A model generated the notes under the pieces. That model searched no databases and had not been told where the DNA came from. It was given only the letters and a program-made list of their open reading frames with translations. Both the position numbers and the translations under genes were made by a program. From Candidatus Helarchaeota archaeon (GTDB lineage: Archaea > Asgardarchaeota > Lokiarchaeia > Helarchaeales > JABXJV01), in assembly GCA_013375355.1 (NCBI GenBank), contig JABXJV010000146.1:1-20367 (forward strand): a DNA stretch of 20,367 bases, given 5' to 3'. This document shows positions 429 to 19,399 of this stretch, one piece after another (position 1 is the stretch's first letter; every line of letters begins with the position of its first letter).

Positions 429-1378
429 ATGGTTGTTGTTGGTGATGGTCGTTACAAAATTCCCGATGATTTAGCTTATACAATCCAGCATGTATACTTT
501 AATTCTGAAAATGGTAAAATCGGTTTGGATGAATTAGGAATTGATTTCATTGCCAGACCGAAAGAAATAGAATTTCTCCAAAAAGATAAGGTAGAAAAAG
601 GAAAACCTTTTGCTTCAATCGCAGTAGAAAATGGAATGGTAACTCTTAATAGTCCCGTTTCGGGAAACATCAAGGAAATAAACACAGATGCCTTAAAGAA
701 TTTGGATCAAACATATGATAAAGGGTTTCTAATAATAGTTAGTCCTACTAATTTAGAAGCAGATTTAGGAGATCTTGTAAAAGGTGAAAAAATCGAAGAA
801 TGGGCAAAAAAAGAAGCCCAACAAGTAGCAAGGAGTGTCTTCAGTTATAAAATCATTGAAGTTGGGGATTCTACTGTGGGAAAAACAGCGATTAAGGTAA
901 GATTTACAGATGATTATTTCAAAAAGGACTTAAAGAGCACTCTTGGAGTAGACTTTGGCTCAAAAGAAGTTCATTTTGATTATTTTGGAGATGATCCAAT
1001 GCTAGGAGTTGAAAAAATCACTGCTAAACTGAATGTCTGGGATACTGGAGGTCAAGAGGCGTATGGAGTCTTCGTAAAATGTATTATAAAGAAGCCAGAG
1101 GGTGTCTAGTTGTTTTTGACGTTACGAATGCCGCCAGTTTTGATCATGTTCCAAAATGGGTTGATGAACTTTATGGGAACGTTGGACCTATTCCAGTCCT
1201 TTTAGTTGGGAATAAAATCGATCTAGTTGATCAAAGGAAAATCGCAACAGATAAAGCCGAAAAATTAGCCAAAGAGAAAGGTTATCTATATATCGAAACT
1301 TCTGCATTAACGGGAAAAAATGTTGTAGATGCATTTACGAAATTAGCAAGATCCATCTACGAAACGAAGAAGAAATAG
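429..1378 (+). CDS. H-protein-like (lipoyl-type) domain fused to a Ras/Rab-type small GTPase; frame broken by one base
   Basis: Residues about 15-120 resemble glycine-cleavage H protein: an N-terminal YTIQH segment (H protein: YT-x-x-H), a VEKGKPFA turn, then LNSPVSGNIKEIN matching the SPVSGxVxEVN hairpin, and a C-terminal FLIIVSP strand. The lysine that carries lipoate in true H proteins is absent (VENGMVTL in that place), so a lipoyl carrier role is unlikely. From about residue 138 there is a G domain: P-loop GDSTVGKT (146-153), switch I threonine T171 and DTGGQE (205-210). The frame is then lost. It resumes one frame over from CGT at 1073 as RKMYYKEARG, with NKID and ETSA motifs and a C-terminal tail ETKKK without cysteine. 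Restoring one base near 1072 gives 316 residues. GGAG at 415-418 supports the ATG. As written, the gene yields a 226-residue product with an incomplete G domain. The H-like assignment is by motif reading, not by search. Confidence 0.75.
1068..1081 (+). other. Frameshift site within the GTPase gene
   Basis: The upstream frame reads GTC TTC GTA AAA TGT; the downstream frame reads CGT AAA ATG TAT TAT. One extra C (TTC CGT) would join them as VFRKMYY. That restores exactly eight residues between the QE of the G3 motif and the YY, as in Rab proteins. No canonical slippery heptamer or strong stem-loop was seen here, so a sequencing or assembly error or a recent deletion is likelier than programmed frameshifting. 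Confidence 0.75.
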
Positions 1379-1526: not shown

Positions 1527-2414
1527 ATGGTAAAAGATAAAGTTATGTCCATTAGTGATGCTATTGCTTTGATAGATGAAGGTGATCATGTTGGATTTGG
1601 TGGGGTAATAACCAACAGAAAGCCAATGGCAATGATTTTTGAGTTAATAAAGCAACAAAAGAAAGATTTAGTCGTGTCCATTTTAACTGGAAACTTTGGA
1701 ATTGATGCTATGATTGGAATGGGACAAATTAAAACCCTAAATACAATTTATTGCGGCTTGGAAAACCTCGGATTTGCTCCAAATTTTCAACAACAGGTCC
1801 AAGCAGGAGCTCTTCCAGTGAATGAATTTACGGAAATGCAATTCTTTATGGCAGTTAGAGCCTCTGAAATGGGACTACCATTTCTTCCAACACGAACAGG
1901 GTTCGGAAGCGAATTAATTCGAGTTAATCCGTATTTAACTATGATGAAATGTCCTCACACCGAAGAAGAGTTGGTGGCAGTTAAAGCAATAGAGCCTGAT
2001 GTTACTATTATTCATTCTATGGTAGGTGATCATCAAGGCAACATCCAACTCGAAGGATCTAAAACTTACATGGATGATTCGATTTCACGTTCTTGTAAAA
2101 TCGGTGGTAAAGTAATTGTTTCTGTAGAAAAATTGGTGGATACTGAATATATATACCGTAATCCTATTAATACCATTATAAATAGCTTTGAAGTAGATGT
2201 TGTCGTTGAAGTACCATTCGGCAGTCATCCCGGATCGTTTGCACCACTTTATGCATCAGATATGGCAACTCTTATGACTCTTGCTAATGCCCTTGCCAAA
2301 CCTAAGAGGCTTAATAGATGGTTAGAAAAAAATATTTTTTCACTAAATAATTGGGAAGAATATTTACAGAAATTTAAATTAAAGAAAGATAAATGGTGGG
2401 AGGAGAAAAAATGA
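1527..2414 (+). CDS. Family I CoA-transferase-like subunit A (GctA/IpdA type)
   Basis: This 295-residue protein has the layout of the alpha subunit of glutaconate CoA-transferase and its hydrolase relatives such as IpdA. It shows an early glycine-rich turn DHVGFGGVITNRKPMA (20-35), the NEFTEMQF segment (99-106) and the characteristic GLPFLPTRTGFGSEL stretch, followed by DVTIIHSMVGDHQGNIQLEG. Such subunits form heterodimers with a B subunit and move CoA between carboxylates or, in IpdAB, open a ring thioester by hydrolysis. The acid that acts in IpdA lies in the EF/EW segment, here E100 or E103 by eye. The ATG has a GTGA four nucleotides further upstream. The gene overlaps the next start by ATGA, so the two are probably translated together. 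The substrate is unknown. Confidence 0.85.
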   Translation: MVKDKVMSISDAIALIDEGDHVGFGGVITNRKPMAMIFELIKQQKKDLVVSILTGNFGIDAMIGMGQIKTLNTIYCGLENLGFAPNFQQQVQAGALPVNEFTEMQFFMAVRASEMGLPFLPTRTGFGSELIRVNPYLTMMKCPHTEEELVAVKAIEPDVTIIHSMVGDHQGNIQLEGSKTYMDDSISRSCKIGGKVIVSVEKLVDTEYIYRNPINTIINSFEVDVVVEVPFGSHPGSFAPLYASDMATLMTLANALAKPKRLNRWLEKNIFSLNNWEEYLQKFKLKKDKWWEEKK

Positions 2415-3271
2415 CAGAAGAAAAAGAATTTAATACCCCAGAAATTATGGTAACAACTCTTGCCGGCTATATTAAAGATGGAGATGTTATGTTTCAAGGT
2501 GCCGCCACTCCTATGCCAATGGTTGCAATAGAATTAGCTAGAGCTACACATGCTAAAGATATTACTTATTTTTCAGGTTTAGGATTAAATCCGCATAAAC
2601 CAATTAATTTTGAGGATTTTATGGTGAGAGGAATAACTGAAGTAATCAAAGAAATTAAAGTTACAAACCATATGTATGCGCGAGAAATGTGGGATCAATG
2701 GCAAAAAGGAAGATTAAGCCTCGAATTCTTACGTCCAGCACAAATCGATAAAAATTGGAATTGTAATAATACAGTTATTTATGGGGAAGAAAAAAATTAC
2801 CATAAACCAAAGGTTCGATTACCTGGTGGAATGGCAGTTTCTGATGCATTAAATTTAATGAAAAAAGTTGTCCTCTACACGCCTCGACATATGAAGAGAA
2901 CTTTCGTTGAAAATGTTGATTTTATAATGTGTAAGGGCTATCCTAACTCTGAATGGCGAAAAAAACATAGGATGGGTTCAGGACCAATTGCGATGGTTAC
3001 AAATCTTTGTGTATTTGAGCCCGATCCTAATACCGGTATGATGGCAATTAAATCGCTTCATCCAGGAGTTACACTTGATAATGTTCTTGAAAATACTGGA
3101 TTTGACCCTATCCGCCCAAAAAGTATTCCAATAACTCCCATTCCGACATCGGAACAATTAGAGCTAATAAGAAATAAAATTGACCGAATAGGTTTTCGTG
3201 AGATTGAATTCCCAGATATGCGGAATAAAGTAATGGCTCGTGTAGCCCAAAAAGCCAGAGGTGAAGGTTAA
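2411..3271 (+). CDS. Family I CoA-transferase-like subunit B (GctB/IpdB type) lacking the usual catalytic Glu
   Basis: This is the partner of the preceding subunit: 286 residues with an early GDVMFQGAATPMPMVAIELA segment, RLPGGMAVSDALNL in mid-protein and LHPGVTLDNVLENTGF near the C-terminus, all typical of GctB/IpdB-like proteins. In true family I transferases a glutamate before a Ser-Gly or Asn-Gly pair attacks the acyl-CoA (Glu54 in glutaconate CoA-transferase beta). Here that place reads ITYFSGLGL, with Phe at residue 54. This suggests a hydrolase or lyase like IpdAB rather than a transferase, which is inference. The start at 2411 is chosen because GGTGGGAGGAG (2395-2405) sits just before it; an ATG at 2393 would place that site inside the gene. 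The stop overlaps the next gene's ATG (TAATG). Confidence 0.85.
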   Translation: MTEEKEFNTPEIMVTTLAGYIKDGDVMFQGAATPMPMVAIELARATHAKDITYFSGLGLNPHKPINFEDFMVRGITEVIKEIKVTNHMYAREMWDQWQKGRLSLEFLRPAQIDKNWNCNNTVIYGEEKNYHKPKVRLPGGMAVSDALNLMKKVVLYTPRHMKRTFVENVDFIMCKGYPNSEWRKKHRMGSGPIAMVTNLCVFEPDPNTGMMAIKSLHPGVTLDNVLENTGFDPIRPKSIPITPIPTSEQLELIRNKIDRIGFREIEFPDMRNKVMARVAQKARGEG

Positions 3272-8415: not shown

Positions 8416-8603
8416 GATATTAATCTAGCTAAATGTTCAATTTCTTGTTAAAAATAGATAAATCTCTTAAGTATAGTTCAAAGTTATAGGACTTAATTTT
8501 GTCAACAATTTTAAATGTTAAAACCAAATAATATGGTAAGTGTTATTTGAATATATTATATTTAAAATTTAATTAGAATAAAATATGTTTTAATCAAGAT
8601 AAA

Positions 8604-8609
8604 TGAGGT
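8604..8609 (+). promoter_or_regulatory. Shine-Dalgarno site that sets the start of the coiled-coil gene
   Basis: TGAGGT lies eight bases before ATG 8618. It overlaps the earlier in-frame ATG at 8603, which has no site of its own. This favours 8618. Confidence 0.65.
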
Positions 8610-8617
8610 ATTCAAGC

Positions 8618-9577
8618 ATGGCAATTGAATGGGCAAAAGTTGAAGAAAAACCAGATAAGTCTGTGAAAGTTGTAGGTCGATATTTATTAGATACAAGAAA
8701 AAGAATAGAAACTTTAGAAGCAGAACTTGAAAAAACGAAAGGTGAGAAAGAACAAACTGAAGCCAAGTTAAGTTCTGCCGAGTTACGAATCGAAACCTTA
8801 AATGCAGAATTAGAAGATAAAATCAATAAAAATAAGGAACTTGAAGAAGACCTTGGTTCGAATAAAAATCTTCTAAGCAACGTAAGAGACGAGTTAGAGG
8901 AAGTTAAAGGTAAATTAGCCACTACTGAAGAAAATTTAAAAGCAAAAGAAAGTGAAGTCACCTCTTTAGAAGCAGATGGCGAAAATCTTTCCAATGCAAT
9001 TAGCGAAAAAGATCAAGAAGTCTCTGATTTAACCACGAAATTAGAAGAAGCAAATGCTAAATCAGCTGAATTGGAAACTAAGATAAGTGATCTTGAAGAA
9101 AAAGCAAAAAAACTTGAAGTGGCTGAAACTAGAGTTACGGAATTAGAAAAAATTGCTGGTGAATCTGAAAGTCTTTCTAGCGCCGTTGAAGAAAAAGATA
9201 GTAAGATTTCTGAACTGGAATCAAAACTCGCTTCATTGGAAAATATGACTGAGCAATTGAGTGAACGAGATAACACAATTTCCGAATTAAATGCAAAATT
9301 AGAAGAAGCCGAAAACAGAATTAATGAACTTGGACAAGAATTAGAAAAATTAAAACCACCGGAAGAAGAAATTGTAGCAGCAACTCCTTCTACAGGTAAA
9401 ACAGTAACAACAACGATACCTTGGGGTGCGTCTGGAATTTATGCATGTCCAAGATGTTCGTCAAAACGACTTAAACAAGAAAAAGATCGAACAAAAATCC
9501 TCTACATGGCTGCTGGTGCTCCTGTCTACGCAACAAAGTTCAAGTGTATGAATTGTGGCAATGAATGGAAGAAATAA
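8618..9577 (+). CDS. Long coiled-coil protein with C-terminal TFIIS-like zinc ribbon
   Basis: The 319-residue product begins MAIEWAKVEEKPDKS. From about residue 25 to 250 it is an almost unbroken coiled coil rich in Glu, Lys and Leu, with repeated blocks such as ISELESKLASLE and ISELNAKLEEAE, and few prolines. A short Thr/Pro linker follows (about 252-268). The chain ends in a zinc ribbon with Cys277, Cys280, Cys310 and Cys313 (CPRC ... CMNCGNEWKK), like the ribbons of TFIIS and archaeal RNA polymerase small subunits. No membrane segment or P-loop is present, so it is not an SMC or Rad50 ATPase. It is probably a cytoplasmic scaffold; its partner is unknown. Coiled-coil proteins with a terminal zinc ribbon are reminiscent of Asgard genomes, but the specific role is not known. 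Confidence 0.7.
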   Translation: MAIEWAKVEEKPDKSVKVVGRYLLDTRKRIETLEAELEKTKGEKEQTEAKLSSAELRIETLNAELEDKINKNKELEEDLGSNKNLLSNVRDELEEVKGKLATTEENLKAKESEVTSLEADGENLSNAISEKDQEVSDLTTKLEEANAKSAELETKISDLEEKAKKLEVAETRVTELEKIAGESESLSSAVEEKDSKISELESKLASLENMTEQLSERDNTISELNAKLEEAENRINELGQELEKLKPPEEEIVAATPSTGKTVTTTIPWGASGIYACPRCSSKRLKQEKDRTKILYMAAGAPVYATKFKCMNCGNEWKK

Positions 9578-14995: not shown

Positions 14996-16024
14996 TTGGA
15001 ATCAGAAATTTTAAAAGGAGTAGTTTATTCAAAATTTGAGAATATTGGACCTTCTCCATTAGCTTGGTATCCCTTAGAAATTAAAACCGATACCTTAAGG
15101 TTAATTTCTTTAAAATCAATTACACTATTAACAGGTGAAGAAGGAGAGGTTCCAGAAACAACGGCAGTAGTCCCATTTCCGAATTTAGGGCGCTCTGGAT
15201 TGGTAAAATATTTAGAAATCGAAGACCCTCAAGCACGTGGTGGTTGTAGAGATGCTTCAGTGACAATTTTATTTGATGATAAATATAATTCAGTAATTTA
15301 CAAATATATGAACGTTTTAAACGAACGGTTGAATGATTTTTCAAAAATTATTATTAAATTAGAAAAAGAGAAAAACACATCTCAATTTTCAAAGGAACTC
15401 AAAGATTTTTATTCGGAAATTTTGGATCTATTAAAAGAATTACAACAAAGCGAGGATCGAGAGCAATTTCCTGCCCCTAAATTAACTGTTTCCCCCCCAA
15501 AAACCCAATACCGATTTAAAGTTATTGTCGTTGGCGATCCAGCAGTTGGTAAGACAACTTTAATACTCCGATATGTTGATAGGGCTTTTAAAAAATTGTA
15601 TGTGCCCACCATCGGTGTCCAGACATCGAGCAAATTAGTTAAATTGAAGGATCCTCAAGATTCTTATATTGAATTAATAATTTGGGATATAGCTGGCCAA
15701 GAAAAATTCAATCAATTAAGAAAACTTTTCTACTCAGGAGCAGATGGAGTAATTTTTGTCTTTGATGTTACCAATAGACAAACATTTATCAACACTGCAA
15801 GTTGGTTTAAAGACGTTCAACAAAACTTGGATAGGGATTGGAAAGGAATTATCTTAGCAAATAAAATAGATCTAAAAGATAATCGTGTTATAGGACCAAG
15901 GGCTGGCCAAGTCATAGCAGATAAAACAGGATTAGACTATTTAGAGACCTCTGCAAGAACTGGTGTGAATGTAGACTCGTTATTTCAATTACTTAGTAAG
16001 AAAATCCTTGGAACGAAAATCTAA
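14996..16024 (+). CDS. Ras/Rab-type small GTPase with N-terminal longin-like domain (paralogue 1)
   Basis: A 342-residue protein. Residues 1-125 form a domain shared with the next three GTPases (motifs SITLLTGEEGEVP at 41-53 and LFDDKYNS at 92-99). Its order of predicted strands and helices resembles a longin domain. A helical linker (about 126-155) leads to the G domain: GDPAVGKT (180-187), switch I T205, DIAGQ (231-235), NKID (289-292) and TSA (318-320). All five nucleotide-binding motifs and the switch II glutamine are intact, so it should bind and hydrolyse GTP. The C-terminus GTKI has no cysteine, so lipid attachment as in eukaryotic Ras or Rab is not expected. TTG 14996 is supported by AGAGGA six bases upstream. 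It is convergent with the next GTPase gene with a 31-base gap. Confidence 0.85.
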   Translation: MESEILKGVVYSKFENIGPSPLAWYPLEIKTDTLRLISLKSITLLTGEEGEVPETTAVVPFPNLGRSGLVKYLEIEDPQARGGCRDASVTILFDDKYNSVIYKYMNVLNERLNDFSKIIIKLEKEKNTSQFSKELKDFYSEILDLLKELQQSEDREQFPAPKLTVSPPKTQYRFKVIVVGDPAVGKTTLILRYVDRAFKKLYVPTIGVQTSSKLVKLKDPQDSYIELIIWDIAGQEKFNQLRKLFYSGADGVIFVFDVTNRQTFINTASWFKDVQQNLDRDWKGIILANKIDLKDNRVIGPRAGQVIADKTGLDYLETSARTGVNVDSLFQLLSKKILGTKI

Positions 16025-16026
16025 TT

Positions 16027-16045
16027 AAAAAAAATCTTAAAAAAA
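16027..16045 (-). terminator. Oligo-T termination tracts for the minus-strand GTPase gene
   Basis: On the minus strand there are runs of seven and eight T just after the stop of the gene ending at 16056. They lie in the 31-base gap between convergent genes. Confidence 0.45.
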
Positions 16046-16055
16046 TTGCTAATTC

Positions 16056-17066
16056 TTATTTTGTGACTAAAATTTCAGCAAGTTGCTTAAAAGCTTCGTT
16101 TACCTTCTCCCCTGTCTTTGCTGAAGTTTCTACATATCCTAATCCAAATTTTTCTGCTATTTTTTCTGCAGCTTTTCTAGTGATTACTCGTTTTGATTTT
16201 AAATCAATCTTATTTCCAATTATCAATCCTATAGGTTTTTTTGATGAAAAATTTGGGGAAACATCTTTAATCCAACTTTCAATATGATCGAATGATTCTT
16301 TATTCGAAACATCATACATAATTAAGACACTATTTACATCTTCATAAAAAACCCTTCGCATTAATGAGAATTTTTCTTGCCCCGCGATATCAAAGATATT
16401 TAAATGAATATTTTTATTGGCTATAGAGACCTTCTTGTTACAAACATTCACCCCAATCGTAGGGAGATAACTTTCTTGAAAACTATCATCCACAAATCGT
16501 AGAAGCAATGTTGTTTTTCCAACACCTGCATCACCGATGACTACTACTTTGAATCTAAAATCTGGTTTTTTTTCTACAACTCTTTCCCTAGCTCTTTTTT
16601 CTGCCTCTCTTATAGAATCTAGATTATTAAGTAGCTTTTGATAAAGCTCTTTTAATACTGGTTCAATTTTTTCTTCGTTATTTGAAATTTCTTTTTCAAT
16701 TATTTTATTTGCGACCTCTCTAAGTAGCTTTTCAAACTGTTCAGAATATTTATAAGCAAGGGAGGAGTATTTTTCATTGAAAAGCACAGTTAAATTAGAG
16801 TCTCTGGCTCCCCCTCTCTTCGACTCATCTTTAAGTTCGAAATGATAAACAATACCAATAAGTTGGTATTTTACAAAAGGAATAATAGATACTTCTTTAG
16901 GTACTCTTCCCTCTTCCCCAGTTAATAGTGTCATTGATTTGATTGCAACTAATTCTAATATAGCGAGGTCGAATTCAGTTTGTGGATAATAATCTTTAAC
17001 TTCGGGTCCAAATTCGCCCACTACAGTATAAATAATCCCCTTTAAAATTTGTTTTTCATTAACCAT
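16056..17066 (-). CDS. Ras/Rab-type small GTPase with N-terminal longin-like domain (paralogue 2)
   Basis: A 336-residue paralogue. The N-terminal domain (about 1-125) has KSMTLLTGEEGRVP (43-56) and LFNEKYSS (95-102). A charged helical linker rich in Glu/Arg covers about 126-166. The G domain has GDAGVGKT (178-185), switch I T203, DIAGQ (226-230), NKID (285-288) and TSA (314-316), all intact. The C-terminus LVTK has no cysteine. It is closest to paralogue 3 directly upstream: both have LPTIGVNV, AGQEKF followed by LMRRVFYE, and WIKDVS. The ATG at 17066 lacks an obvious ribosome-binding site. The gap to the upstream gene is 64 bases, so the two minus-strand genes may form one transcript. Confidence 0.85.
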   Translation of the reverse strand: MVNEKQILKGIIYTVVGEFGPEVKDYYPQTEFDLAILELVAIKSMTLLTGEEGRVPKEVSIIPFVKYQLIGIVYHFELKDESKRGGARDSNLTVLFNEKYSSLAYKYSEQFEKLLREVANKIIEKEISNNEEKIEPVLKELYQKLLNNLDSIREAEKRARERVVEKKPDFRFKVVVIGDAGVGKTTLLLRFVDDSFQESYLPTIGVNVCNKKVSIANKNIHLNIFDIAGQEKFSLMRRVFYEDVNSVLIMYDVSNKESFDHIESWIKDVSPNFSSKKPIGLIIGNKIDLKSKRVITRKAAEKIAEKFGLGYVETSAKTGEKVNEAFKQLAEILVTK

Positions 17067-17130
17067 AATTTATTCTTTATTATGTTGTGCTTAAAATTTC
17101 TTTTTATTATTTGTCAAATTTAACTATTTT

Positions 17131-18156
17131 TTATTTTTTCATTACTATTTTTGCAAGGAGAGTAAATGCTTCATTAATTTTTTCGCCCGACTTCGCAGAA
17201 ACCTCTATGTAATCTAATCCAAATTTTTTTGCTATAGCTTCAGCATCTTCTTTTTTAATTATTCTTTGTGATTCCAAGTCGATTTTATTTCCAACAATAA
17301 TTCCTTTAACTTTTTTAGGCGAAAATGCCTCAGAAACATCTTTAATCCAATTATCAAGGTGTTGAAAAGATTCAATTGATGTAATATCAAACATTATGAC
17401 AGCTCCATTCAATCCCTCATAGAAGACTCTTCTCATGAGTTTAAATTTTTCCTGACCTGCAATATCATAAAAATTCAGTCTTACTCTTACTTTTTTTGTA
17501 GCCCTAGCTAACGAAATATCTTTGTTAGACACATTTACTCCAATTGTAGGTAAATAAGTTTCTTGAAATGCGTTATCTACATAACGGAGAAGTGTAGTGG
17601 TTTTGCCTACTCTTCCATCTCCGATAACTACAATCTTAAATCTATAGGCAGGTTTTTTCTTTTTGACAGTTTTTAAAGCTTGTGCTTCCGCTTTTTTTAA
17701 GGAATCGAGATTTTTAATTAAGGTTTCATAAAGCTTAACTATTATGGATTCAACCTCTTCCCTATTTTTCGCCATTTCACTTTCATTTATTTTTTTTGCA
17801 ACTTCAATGAGCAAAGCATTGAATAAATCGCTGTATTTGTAAGCAATTGAGGAATATTTCTCATTAAATAATATGATTATATTCGAATCTACGACCCCTC
17901 CCCTCGATTTTTCGTCTGTTACTTCAAATTGAAATAAAATTCCTAAGAGTTGATATTTAGCATAAAGAATTATCGAAATTTGATCCGGCACATGACCTTC
18001 ATCGCCTGTTAAAAGTGTAATTGACTTAATTGCAATTGTAGTCAATGTAGCATCATCAAAAAAGTCAGATTTTGGGTGATGGAATTTAACTTCAGGCCCC
18101 ACATCTCCCATTGCATTATAAACAACTCCTTTTAGTATAAAATCTTTTTTTACCAT
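17131..18156 (-). CDS. Ras/Rab-type small GTPase with N-terminal longin-like domain (paralogue 3)
   Basis: A 341-residue paralogue and probably the first gene of a two-gene minus-strand operon. The N-terminal domain carries KSITLLTGDEGHVP (44-57) and LFNEKYSS (96-103). The linker (about 127-168) is helical and ends in a lysine run. The G domain has GDGRVGKT (179-186), switch I T204, DIAGQ (231-235), NKID (290-293) and SAKSG (320-324). A small insertion of basic residues (ARATKKVRVR, 217-226) lengthens the hairpin between switch I and switch II compared with paralogue 2. The C-terminus VMKK lacks cysteine. AAAGGA just before ATG 18156 supports the start. It is divergent from paralogue 4. Confidence 0.85.
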   Translation of the reverse strand: MVKKDFILKGVVYNAMGDVGPEVKFHHPKSDFFDDATLTTIAIKSITLLTGDEGHVPDQISIILYAKYQLLGILFQFEVTDEKSRGGVVDSNIIILFNEKYSSIAYKYSDLFNALLIEVAKKINESEMAKNREEVESIIVKLYETLIKNLDSLKKAEAQALKTVKKKKPAYRFKIVVIGDGRVGKTTTLLRYVDNAFQETYLPTIGVNVSNKDISLARATKKVRVRLNFYDIAGQEKFKLMRRVFYEGLNGAVIMFDITSIESFQHLDNWIKDVSEAFSPKKVKGIIVGNKIDLESQRIIKKEDAEAIAKKFGLDYIEVSAKSGEKINEAFTLLAKIVMKK

Positions 18157-18289
18157 ATTTCCTTTTAATCCTACCTCGATTAAAAACTTTTTGAAAAATG
18201 TTGGCTTATTTATTGTGAATCTAATTTATTAAAAATTAGGAACTAAAAATATAAGGAAAAATCCTATTAAATATAAATAATAATCCAGC

Positions 18290-18325
18290 GTAATTCTAAT
18301 AGTAATTCGTCTAATTTGAATTAGA
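18290..18325. repeat. Short direct and inverted repeats in the divergent GTPase promoter
   Basis: GTAATTC occurs at 18290-18296 and 18302-18308, twelve bases apart. It is followed by TCTAATT-TG-AATTAGA (18310-18325), a perfect seven-base inverted repeat. It sits 21 bases before the ATG at 18347 and could be an operator shared by the two divergent GTPase genes. Chance is possible in DNA this A/T-rich. Confidence 0.35.
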
Positions 18326-18346
18326 ACAATTTGTGAACGAATTAAA

Positions 18347-19399
18347 ATGTCCGAAATTGCAGAAAAAATTGTTAAAGGGATTGTTTTCTCAATTTTTAGA
18401 GAATCTGGCATCGAGCCTAGCGCTTGGTGGCCAGAAATCGATCAAAATTTACGCTCTACTGTTGCTGTAAAATCTATTTCTTTACTTACCGGTGAGGAGG
18501 GAAGAGTTCCATCTCGTATTGCAACACTTCCTTTTCCAACATTTGGTTTGAATTCAGTTTCGTTATTTTTTGAAATTTCAGAGCCAATTCCCGAAAAAAT
18601 TCAATCAGAAAGGACAAAGCGTGATTGTACAATTTCTCTATTATTTAATGACAAATACACTTCATTTATCTATAAAAATATGGAAAAACTAGAATCTAAA
18701 TTAAAAAAAGTCGCTAGAGATATAGTCGAAGCTAATTCAAAAGGGTTTTCTCCAAATCCTCTTTATTTTGAGAAAGTTTATGAAGAATTTGAAAAAATTG
18801 CAAGTGAAATAAGAGATACAGAATTGGAAAAAATGGCCAAAATTGATACATTTAAGGCTAAAGATAAACAGATTAAACACGAGTTCAAAATTGTGTTAGT
18901 TGGGGGTGTTGCAGTAGGAAAAACCACAACTTTACTTCGATATGTAAGAGGAGCTTTTCGGGAAACTTATAAACCAAGTGTAGGAATAGAAGTAAAAACT
19001 AAAGACATTTTAATTGATGATAACCCGATTCGAATTTTAATCTACGATTTTGCAGGCCAAGAAAACTTCGAAAATCTATATCCGACATTTTTCGCAGGTG
19101 CAGATGCTCTAATTATTCTTTATGATATAACTGATTCTGAAAGTTTTTCAAAAGATGCTCCAAAATTCTATAAAATATTTTTAAAATATGCAACAAAAAA
19201 ATTGAAAGCAGGTATTCTAATAGGAAATAAAATTGATCTTATTGATCAAAGGGAAGTAAAACCAGAATGGGGCTATGAATTAGCAAAAAAAATGGAATTT
19301 GGTTATACGGAGATTTCTGCTAAAACAGGTGAAAATGTAGATGATACTTTTTCATTATTAGCTAAAAAAATATATGAAAAAGCTCAAACTAAAATATAA
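18347..19399 (+). CDS. Ras/Rab-type small GTPase with N-terminal longin-like domain (paralogue 4, switch I Ser)
   Basis: A 350-residue paralogue, the most divergent of the four. The N-terminal domain has KSISLLTGEEGRVP (42-55) and LFNDKYTS (99-106); the RGG found in paralogues 1-3 is replaced by a longer charged loop (about 80-93). The helical linker runs from about 118 to 170. The G domain has GGVAVGKT (186-193), DFAGQ (234-238), NKID (294-297) and SAKTG (324-328). The switch I threonine that contacts Mg2+ and gamma-phosphate is a serine here (PSVGIE, S211), which could loosen the GTP-bound state. The C-terminus AQTKI has no cysteine. GTGA ten bases before ATG 18347 is a weak ribosome site. 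Its end faces the proteasome alpha gene with a 15-base gap. Confidence 0.83.
   Translation: MSEIAEKIVKGIVFSIFRESGIEPSAWWPEIDQNLRSTVAVKSISLLTGEEGRVPSRIATLPFPTFGLNSVSLFFEISEPIPEKIQSERTKRDCTISLLFNDKYTSFIYKNMEKLESKLKKVARDIVEANSKGFSPNPLYFEKVYEEFEKIASEIRDTELEKMAKIDTFKAKDKQIKHEFKIVLVGGVAVGKTTTLLRYVRGAFRETYKPSVGIEVKTKDILIDDNPIRILIYDFAGQENFENLYPTFFAGADALIILYDITDSESFSKDAPKFYKIFLKYATKKLKAGILIGNKIDLIDQREVKPEWGYELAKKMEFGYTEISAKTGENVDDTFSLLAKKIYEKAQTKI

Follow-up and report, generated by a model that had tools for sequence, protein, structure and literature searches.

The DNA considered here (the window, positions 1 to 20,367 of the forward strand of contig JABXJV010000146.1, 20,367 nucleotides in all) comes from Candidatus Helarchaeota archaeon (GCA_013375355.1). 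Near its start lies a gene in which a domain of the glycine cleavage H protein (GcvH) type is joined directly to a Rab-like small GTPase. This direct join of a lysine-less H-type domain to a Rab-like GTPase is confirmed as a real and conserved architecture in Asgard archaea.

The fused gene and its division between two frames

According to the list of open reading frames (ORFs) and Pfam, the ORF 429-1109 (+) encodes 226 amino acids, the H-protein-type domain first and a Rab-like GTPase part directly after it, and the remainder of the GTPase is read from a second ORF, 1079-1378 (+), which lies in a different frame. The Ras family (PF00071) matches the two ORFs with 58 and 98.6 bits, respectively, and all of the G1-G5 motifs are present, divided between the two frames. 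In a pairwise DNA alignment (87% identity over the gene) the window has one base fewer near 1067, inside the GTPase, than the intact relative L001, which is one of two fusion genes (L001 and L002) in LW55_61. This frame break may be a sequencing error or a true lesion, as either fits. A preliminary description, made from the window's letters alone, had treated 429..1378 as a single feature. Its order of domains, with the GTPase immediately behind the H type in the same ORF, stands, whereas the one open frame does not. The features of the gene are as follows.

429..830 (+): H-protein-type (GCV_H) domain, residues 1-134, without the lipoyl lysine (PF01597, GcvH matches in the PDB by profile, model of the relative P0003)
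630..632 (+): codon of N68, at the lipoyl lysine position of GcvH (alignments; residue variable over 104 relatives)
789..830 (+): C-terminal helix of the H domain (residues 121-134), running straight into the GTPase (secondary structure of the P0003 model, numbers transferred over a gap-free stretch)
837..1109 (+): first part of the Rab-like GTPase, its last codons past the frame break (PF00071, 58 bits; alignment)
864-887 (+): P-loop GDSTVGKT (alignment)
1041-1058 (+): DTGGQE (alignment)
1064..1078 (+): frame-break stretch, one base fewer than L001 near 1067 (pairwise DNA alignment)
1079..1378 (+): second part of the GTPase, in the other frame (PF00071, 98.6 bits; ORF list)
1211-1222 (+): NKID, in the second GTPase part
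1295-1309 (+): ETSAL, in the second GTPase part

The H-protein-type domain, the GTPase and their conservation

The preliminary description had proposed that the first ~120 residues are related to the H protein, and this kinship was borne out. Residues 1-134 reach 33.5 bits with Pfam GCV_H (PF01597; cut-off 22.2, E 4.4e-8), which makes them a member of the family, and a profile of 11 fused H domains matches the PDB entries 1dxm (E 1.6e-6) and 1onl (E 2e-6), the ten best of 18 matches all being named GcvH. The motifs it had named are in place as well (YTIQH at residues 17-21, VEKGKPFA at 55-62, SPVSG at 75-79 and FLIIVSP at 100-106). Thus the domain belongs to the same family as GcvH, but it differs from it in the missing lipoyl lysine, in the attached GTPase and in a score far under the NCBIfam cut-off for the GcvH equivalog (TIGR00527, 26.8 vs 115.85 bits). 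A check of 12 whole fusion genes from nine genomes with PF01597, at the same cut-off, placed 9 of the 12 over or nearly over it, with eight rows over and three under and with a second G090 copy (22.3) as the ninth. Matches over the cut-off were obtained for G001 (two genes), G084, G088, G089, G090, G091 and G092; the G087 gene, the second genes of G088 and G091 and one G090 gene scored below it or were not listed.

The predicted structure of the relative P0003 has a predicted local distance difference test score (pLDDT) of about 94 for residues 1-130. A model of the frame-broken window protein itself, built from the 11-row alignment, had a mean pLDDT of 31 and was not used, and fold searches in the PDB gave lists filled by Rab chains and hence uninformative on the H domain. 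A longin or roadblock domain in place of the H type, the outcome that the preliminary description had named as speaking against it, was not seen. No longin or roadblock Pfam match exists at the N terminus of the window's fusion protein, and this identity was rejected by profile comparison with hhalign, which gave a probability of 0.14% for the N domains of the four other GTPases of the window versus 99.75% (E 2.9e-27) for H-like proteins of the AGKG type and 98.9% (E 2.4e-17) for canonical GcvH.

At the lipoyl position the window protein carries N68, and N or H stands there in 11/11 rows of the first alignment, in agreement with the lysine loss already described. Neither the conserved lysine of LbpA nor the lipoyl lysine of functional GcvH is therefore found in the window domain. 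Across 104 full-length proteins the column holds K in 12 and eleven different residues in the other 92, and judged from these alignments it behaves as unconstrained. This agrees with the proposal that the fold was reused as a binding module instead of a carrier, but a few of the 12 could still be carriers.

In the GTPase part of the 104 proteins the P-loop is kept in 101, the catalytic Gln in all and GNKxD in 103, and by these motifs the Rab-like switch appears intact in the family. Eukaryotic Rabs are anchored through a prenylated C-terminal Cys motif. Since the last six residues are free of Cys in all 104 full-length fusions, a C-terminal prenyl anchor of the Rab kind is lacking; this and the H-type N-terminal domain set the fusion apart from Rab-family GTPases such as Rab1/Rab11 and the Thorarchaeota Rab (7eze).

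A search with residues 1-134 against about 5.8 billion proteins (E <= 1e-3) returned 11 matches, namely the window's own, nine intact full-length fusions of 316-327 amino acids and a piece of 152 amino acids from a 1,041-base contig. With a full-length profile 262 proteins were found at E <= 1e-30 among 7997 candidates scored. The best 120 of these 262 include Promethearchaeum syntrophicum, Lokiarchaeum ossiferum and Harpocratesius (two each) and a Sigynarchaeota metagenome-assembled genome (MAG); by hand count 19 of these 120 bear the PF01597 label and most are not marked as H-type. The fused-H-domain profile (E <= 1e-5) matches 123 of 124 fetched proteins, including three standalone H proteins taken in by choice, and 0/124 shuffled N-termini in the control; both parts, i.e. 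at least 90 model columns and a P-loop, are present in 111 of the 124. The same domain pair, for which a search in other Asgard genomes had been suggested, occurs in 9/227 of them with 13 genes, one truncated at a contig end. The fetched proteins with both parts include some of Promethearchaeum syntrophicum, Lokiarchaeum, Harpocratesius and Helarchaeota MAGs, of which NCBI taxonomy unites Promethearchaeum and Harpocratesius in the Promethearchaeales and places the Helarchaeota apart. A scan of genome contigs gave three loci, one of them (L003) from Thermoanaerobaculum with 28% over 69 residues. A phage origin of the fusion was rejected, as no match was found in a phage collection.

Relationship to H-like proteins and genes of the Hdr type

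By profile scores and tree the fused domain appears nearer to the H-like proteins of the type adjacent to heterodisulfide reductase (Hdr) genes than to canonical GcvH. With its profile, AGKG/SGKW-type proteins score highest, at up to 84 bits, and canonical GcvH lowest, the bottom four at 21-30 bits. In an unrooted tree of 59 rows, comprising 26 of the 104 fusions and 33 hand-chosen standalone proteins (L022, L026, L028 and L038 were omitted, as no H ORF was extracted), the fusions cluster together (100/99), and their closest neighbour is L007, which adjoins an HdrB-type gene; the domain is short and the root is not set. These archaea commonly encode standalone H-like proteins whose lysine lies in an AGKG or SGKW motif. 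In G001 the loci L006/L007 and L008 have PF02754 matches within about 4 kb, and L017, L021, L025, L029 and L033 have HdrC-, HdrA- or HdrB-like neighbours, judged by eye only, whereas the stretches read around L018, L019 and L093 hold no Hdr-type neighbour. The H domain probably descends from such lipoate-binding H-like proteins beside Hdr genes, which are of LbpA type by likeness.

LbpA of the Hdr-like sulfur oxidation system has an H-type domain tied to Hdr-type genes by neighbourhood, as is seen for part of the fusions, and the Hdr-adjacent H-like proteins of Asgard archaea are the nearest relatives found. In contrast, the fusion domain lacks the conserved lysine and is joined to a GTPase, while none of the 95 LbpA proteins aligned in the paper is fused to a GTPase and all of them have the lysine, and the word stem GTP is absent from its main text (PMC6067878).

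Two kinds of loci with standalone or otherwise fused H domains were observed besides. One cluster of G001 (L094:6513-14700) contains DsrE-like ORFs, an SGKW-type H-like protein, a lipoate-ligase-type gene and HdrC/HdrB/HdrA-like genes and is much like the Hdr loci described for sulfur oxidation in work on LbpA. Another H-domain fusion, an N domain of DGC type (by Pfam in L071) followed by a lysine-keeping H domain, is encoded at L071:934-1881 and L079:1000-1890, in both cases next to ferredoxin-like ORFs.

Some of the fusion genes themselves lie in Hdr clusters. The order in G089, G090 and G091 is HdrC, HdrB, HdrA, FlpD/MvhD, ferredoxin, fusion and a small companion ORF, with 50, 45 and 50 base pairs (bp) between ferredoxin and fusion, respectively, and 13 bp between fusion and companion. 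For G091 the families were scanned directly (the HdrA2 model gives 861 bits, under its cut-off of 1100); for G089, G090 and the other genomes HdrB and HdrA were confirmed by their own profiles, HdrB also by PF02754, and the remaining genes were assigned by likeness. The fusion of G088 is oriented divergently from the Hdr cluster, and 76 bp separate it from the companion behind it. The G084 fusion has an HdrB gene at a distance of 2.3 kb and an additional HdrB-like piece next to it, and the G161 fusion has both an HdrA-like gene and a PF02754 gene no more than about 5 kb away. The contig of G092 is only 3 kb long, with the companion 111 bp after the fusion. G087, left out of the counts, has a GTPase remnant next to the companion, and an HdrB gene adjoining nickel-hydrogenase genes lies 4.4 kb away. 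At L135:7976-8221, in a single-contig genome, only the C-terminal part of a fusion-type GTPase remains beside a companion ORF, a case of gene decay in one lineage.

A PF02754 match within 6 kb was found for 6 of the 12 fusions with a long enough contig (expected 1.08, P 2.2e-4) and, with orthologues collapsed, for 4/7 lineages (P 2.2e-3). The expectation treats each PF02754 match as a place of its own, which biases the test against an Hdr link. The Hdr clusters thus give the idea of a link between GTP switching and metabolism a footing in part of the family, though the window offers none. A connection with the lipoylation machinery, also raised in the preliminary description, was not supported: no lipoate ligase lies beside the fusion in the loci read, and ligase-type genes occur elsewhere in 3/4 genomes searched.

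Possible function and competing explanations

The favoured, though tentative, reading is that the GTPase is docked through its H domain on a complex of the Hdr type or a related one, which GTP switching then gates. The retooled H-type domain at the N terminus of the Rab-like GTPase, as a rule without lipoate, would serve as a docking module that takes the place of the lipoyl carrier on an iron-sulfur complex of the Hdr type or a similar one, with the GTP/GDP state deciding whether it binds or blocks. The companion ORF directly behind the fusion in Lokiarchaea would act as regulator of the GTPase; for the Helarchaeal copies including that of the window, the genes of the partner complex would need to lie at another place. 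The bolder version, in which Lokiarchaea wired a Rab-type switch into the electron-bifurcating Hdr machinery, so that a lysine-less copy of the carrier, together with its GTPase and a regulator encoded in the same operon, would switch the complex on and off with GTP, seems somewhat unlikely as a whole.

The companion family is present in 71/227 Asgard genomes and hence not confined to the fusion system; in L138 and L139 a companion-type domain precedes GTPase motifs. The companion may tentatively be called longin/roadblock-like, and not more firmly, because matches in the libraries are absent or weak (no NCBIfam match for the one protein scanned, no convincing PDB match) and the roadblock probability is low. 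A glutaredoxin-like part followed by a companion-type domain in one frame was seen at L136:758-1678 and L137:1525-2352, the glutaredoxin-like part of L137 scoring 22.0 bits vs a cut-off of 22.9.

Several results weigh against the docking reading. No HdrB or HdrA match (profiles, E <= 1e-5) exists in the window, in L001 and L002, i.e. both LW55_61 copies, or around the second Lokiarchaeal copies L040, L046, L047 and L048; these second copies adjoin RtcB- and SIS-type genes (each family scanned in one locus), from which no functional reading was gained. The 6-kb limit was chosen after the loci had been seen, which favours an Hdr link, and with orthologues collapsed to six lineages the linkage falls to 3/6 (P 0.017). 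To these are added the 12 members with K at the lipoyl position and the predicted template modelling score of 0.64 of the P0003 model, which leaves the orientation of its domains unsure. As for the companion, five proteins gave a single Pfam match (14.8 bits vs a cut-off of 27), and its profile (18/20 fetched loci) reached a probability of 26% with Asgard roadblock proteins, or 17% after L097 had been dropped as a doubtful ORF, with control comparisons at 0.1-0.2%.

The H domain could instead be a scaffold or an in-cis regulator of a GTPase working in membrane or cytoskeletal traffic, as presumed for other Asgard GTPases, the Hdr neighbourhood being secondary. We regard this as somewhat doubtful, since redox partners are suggested by the place of the fusion within the operons of G089-G091 and by the relationship of its H domain to the H-like proteins next to Hdr genes, and since the prenyl anchor is missing. 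Binding of a metabolite or partner of glycine, sulfur or lipoate metabolism without an Hdr complex, the GTPase reporting that state, would suit the Helarchaeal copies, which adjoin other metabolic genes such as the coenzyme A (CoA)-transferase subunits of the window and, by eye, 2-hydroxyacyl-CoA-dehydratase-like genes at L002. However, these neighbours are not conserved and no ligand-binding residue can be named, which makes it quite improbable. The CoA-transferase subunit pair follows the fusion directly (window 1527-3271) and was dropped as a partner of the window copy, because it is missing at the same place in the 88% relative L001. That the family includes genuine lipoyl carriers under GTP control, from which the lysine-less members derive, is very improbable: the lysine-bearing members include P0072 of Lokiarchaeum ossiferum, yet the column as a whole behaves as if free to vary. 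A last question is whether the window copy is a decayed gene without function. Besides the frame break, the two fusion genes of LW55_61, one of which could be dispensable, and the G087 remnant, located at another place, would fit this view; a single gap at 87% DNA identity with no further stop on either side fits a sequencing or assembly error equally well. Decay is thus rather unlikely, and even if real it would leave the wider family unaffected.

Small GTPases of Asgard archaea are mostly discussed as precursors of the membrane traffic of eukaryotes. In the present case a conserved Rab-like GTPase, found in cultured Lokiarchaea, bears a domain of lipoate-dependent metabolism and, in part of the family, is encoded inside a redox operon with a candidate regulator; the Hdr neighbourhood hints that such switches govern metabolism too. 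A metabolic role of this kind is directly testable in organisms that can be grown. If the bolder version is true, the archaea most closely related to eukaryotes would use Rab-type switching for metabolism, either alongside membrane traffic or earlier than it. In the open-licence literature of PubMed Central no H-domain-GTPase fusion was found described, in line with the preliminary description, which knew of no such GTPase. The Asgard longin- and roadblock-GTPase fusions also combine a small GTPase with a second domain (PMC10933270); the N domain of the present fusion is, by contrast, unrelated by profile to those of the window's four other GTPases. The available text of this 2024 survey divides 74 MK-D1 GTPases into 35 single-domain proteins, 26 with longin/roadblock and others marked '?', and does not contain the word 'lipoyl' (PMC10933270). 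The fusions P0020 and P0038 of Promethearchaeum syntrophicum may belong to this '?' class, and the fused H domain may give a name to one of the domains left unassigned in earlier GTPase surveys.

Elsewhere in the window, a coiled-coil protein with a terminal CxxC...CxxC piece is encoded at 8603-9577 and conserved in L001. The four further Rab-like GTPases lie side by side at 14996-19399, two per strand, with a common N-terminal domain, and one of them has a weak match, below the cut-off, to the longin region of Folliculin.
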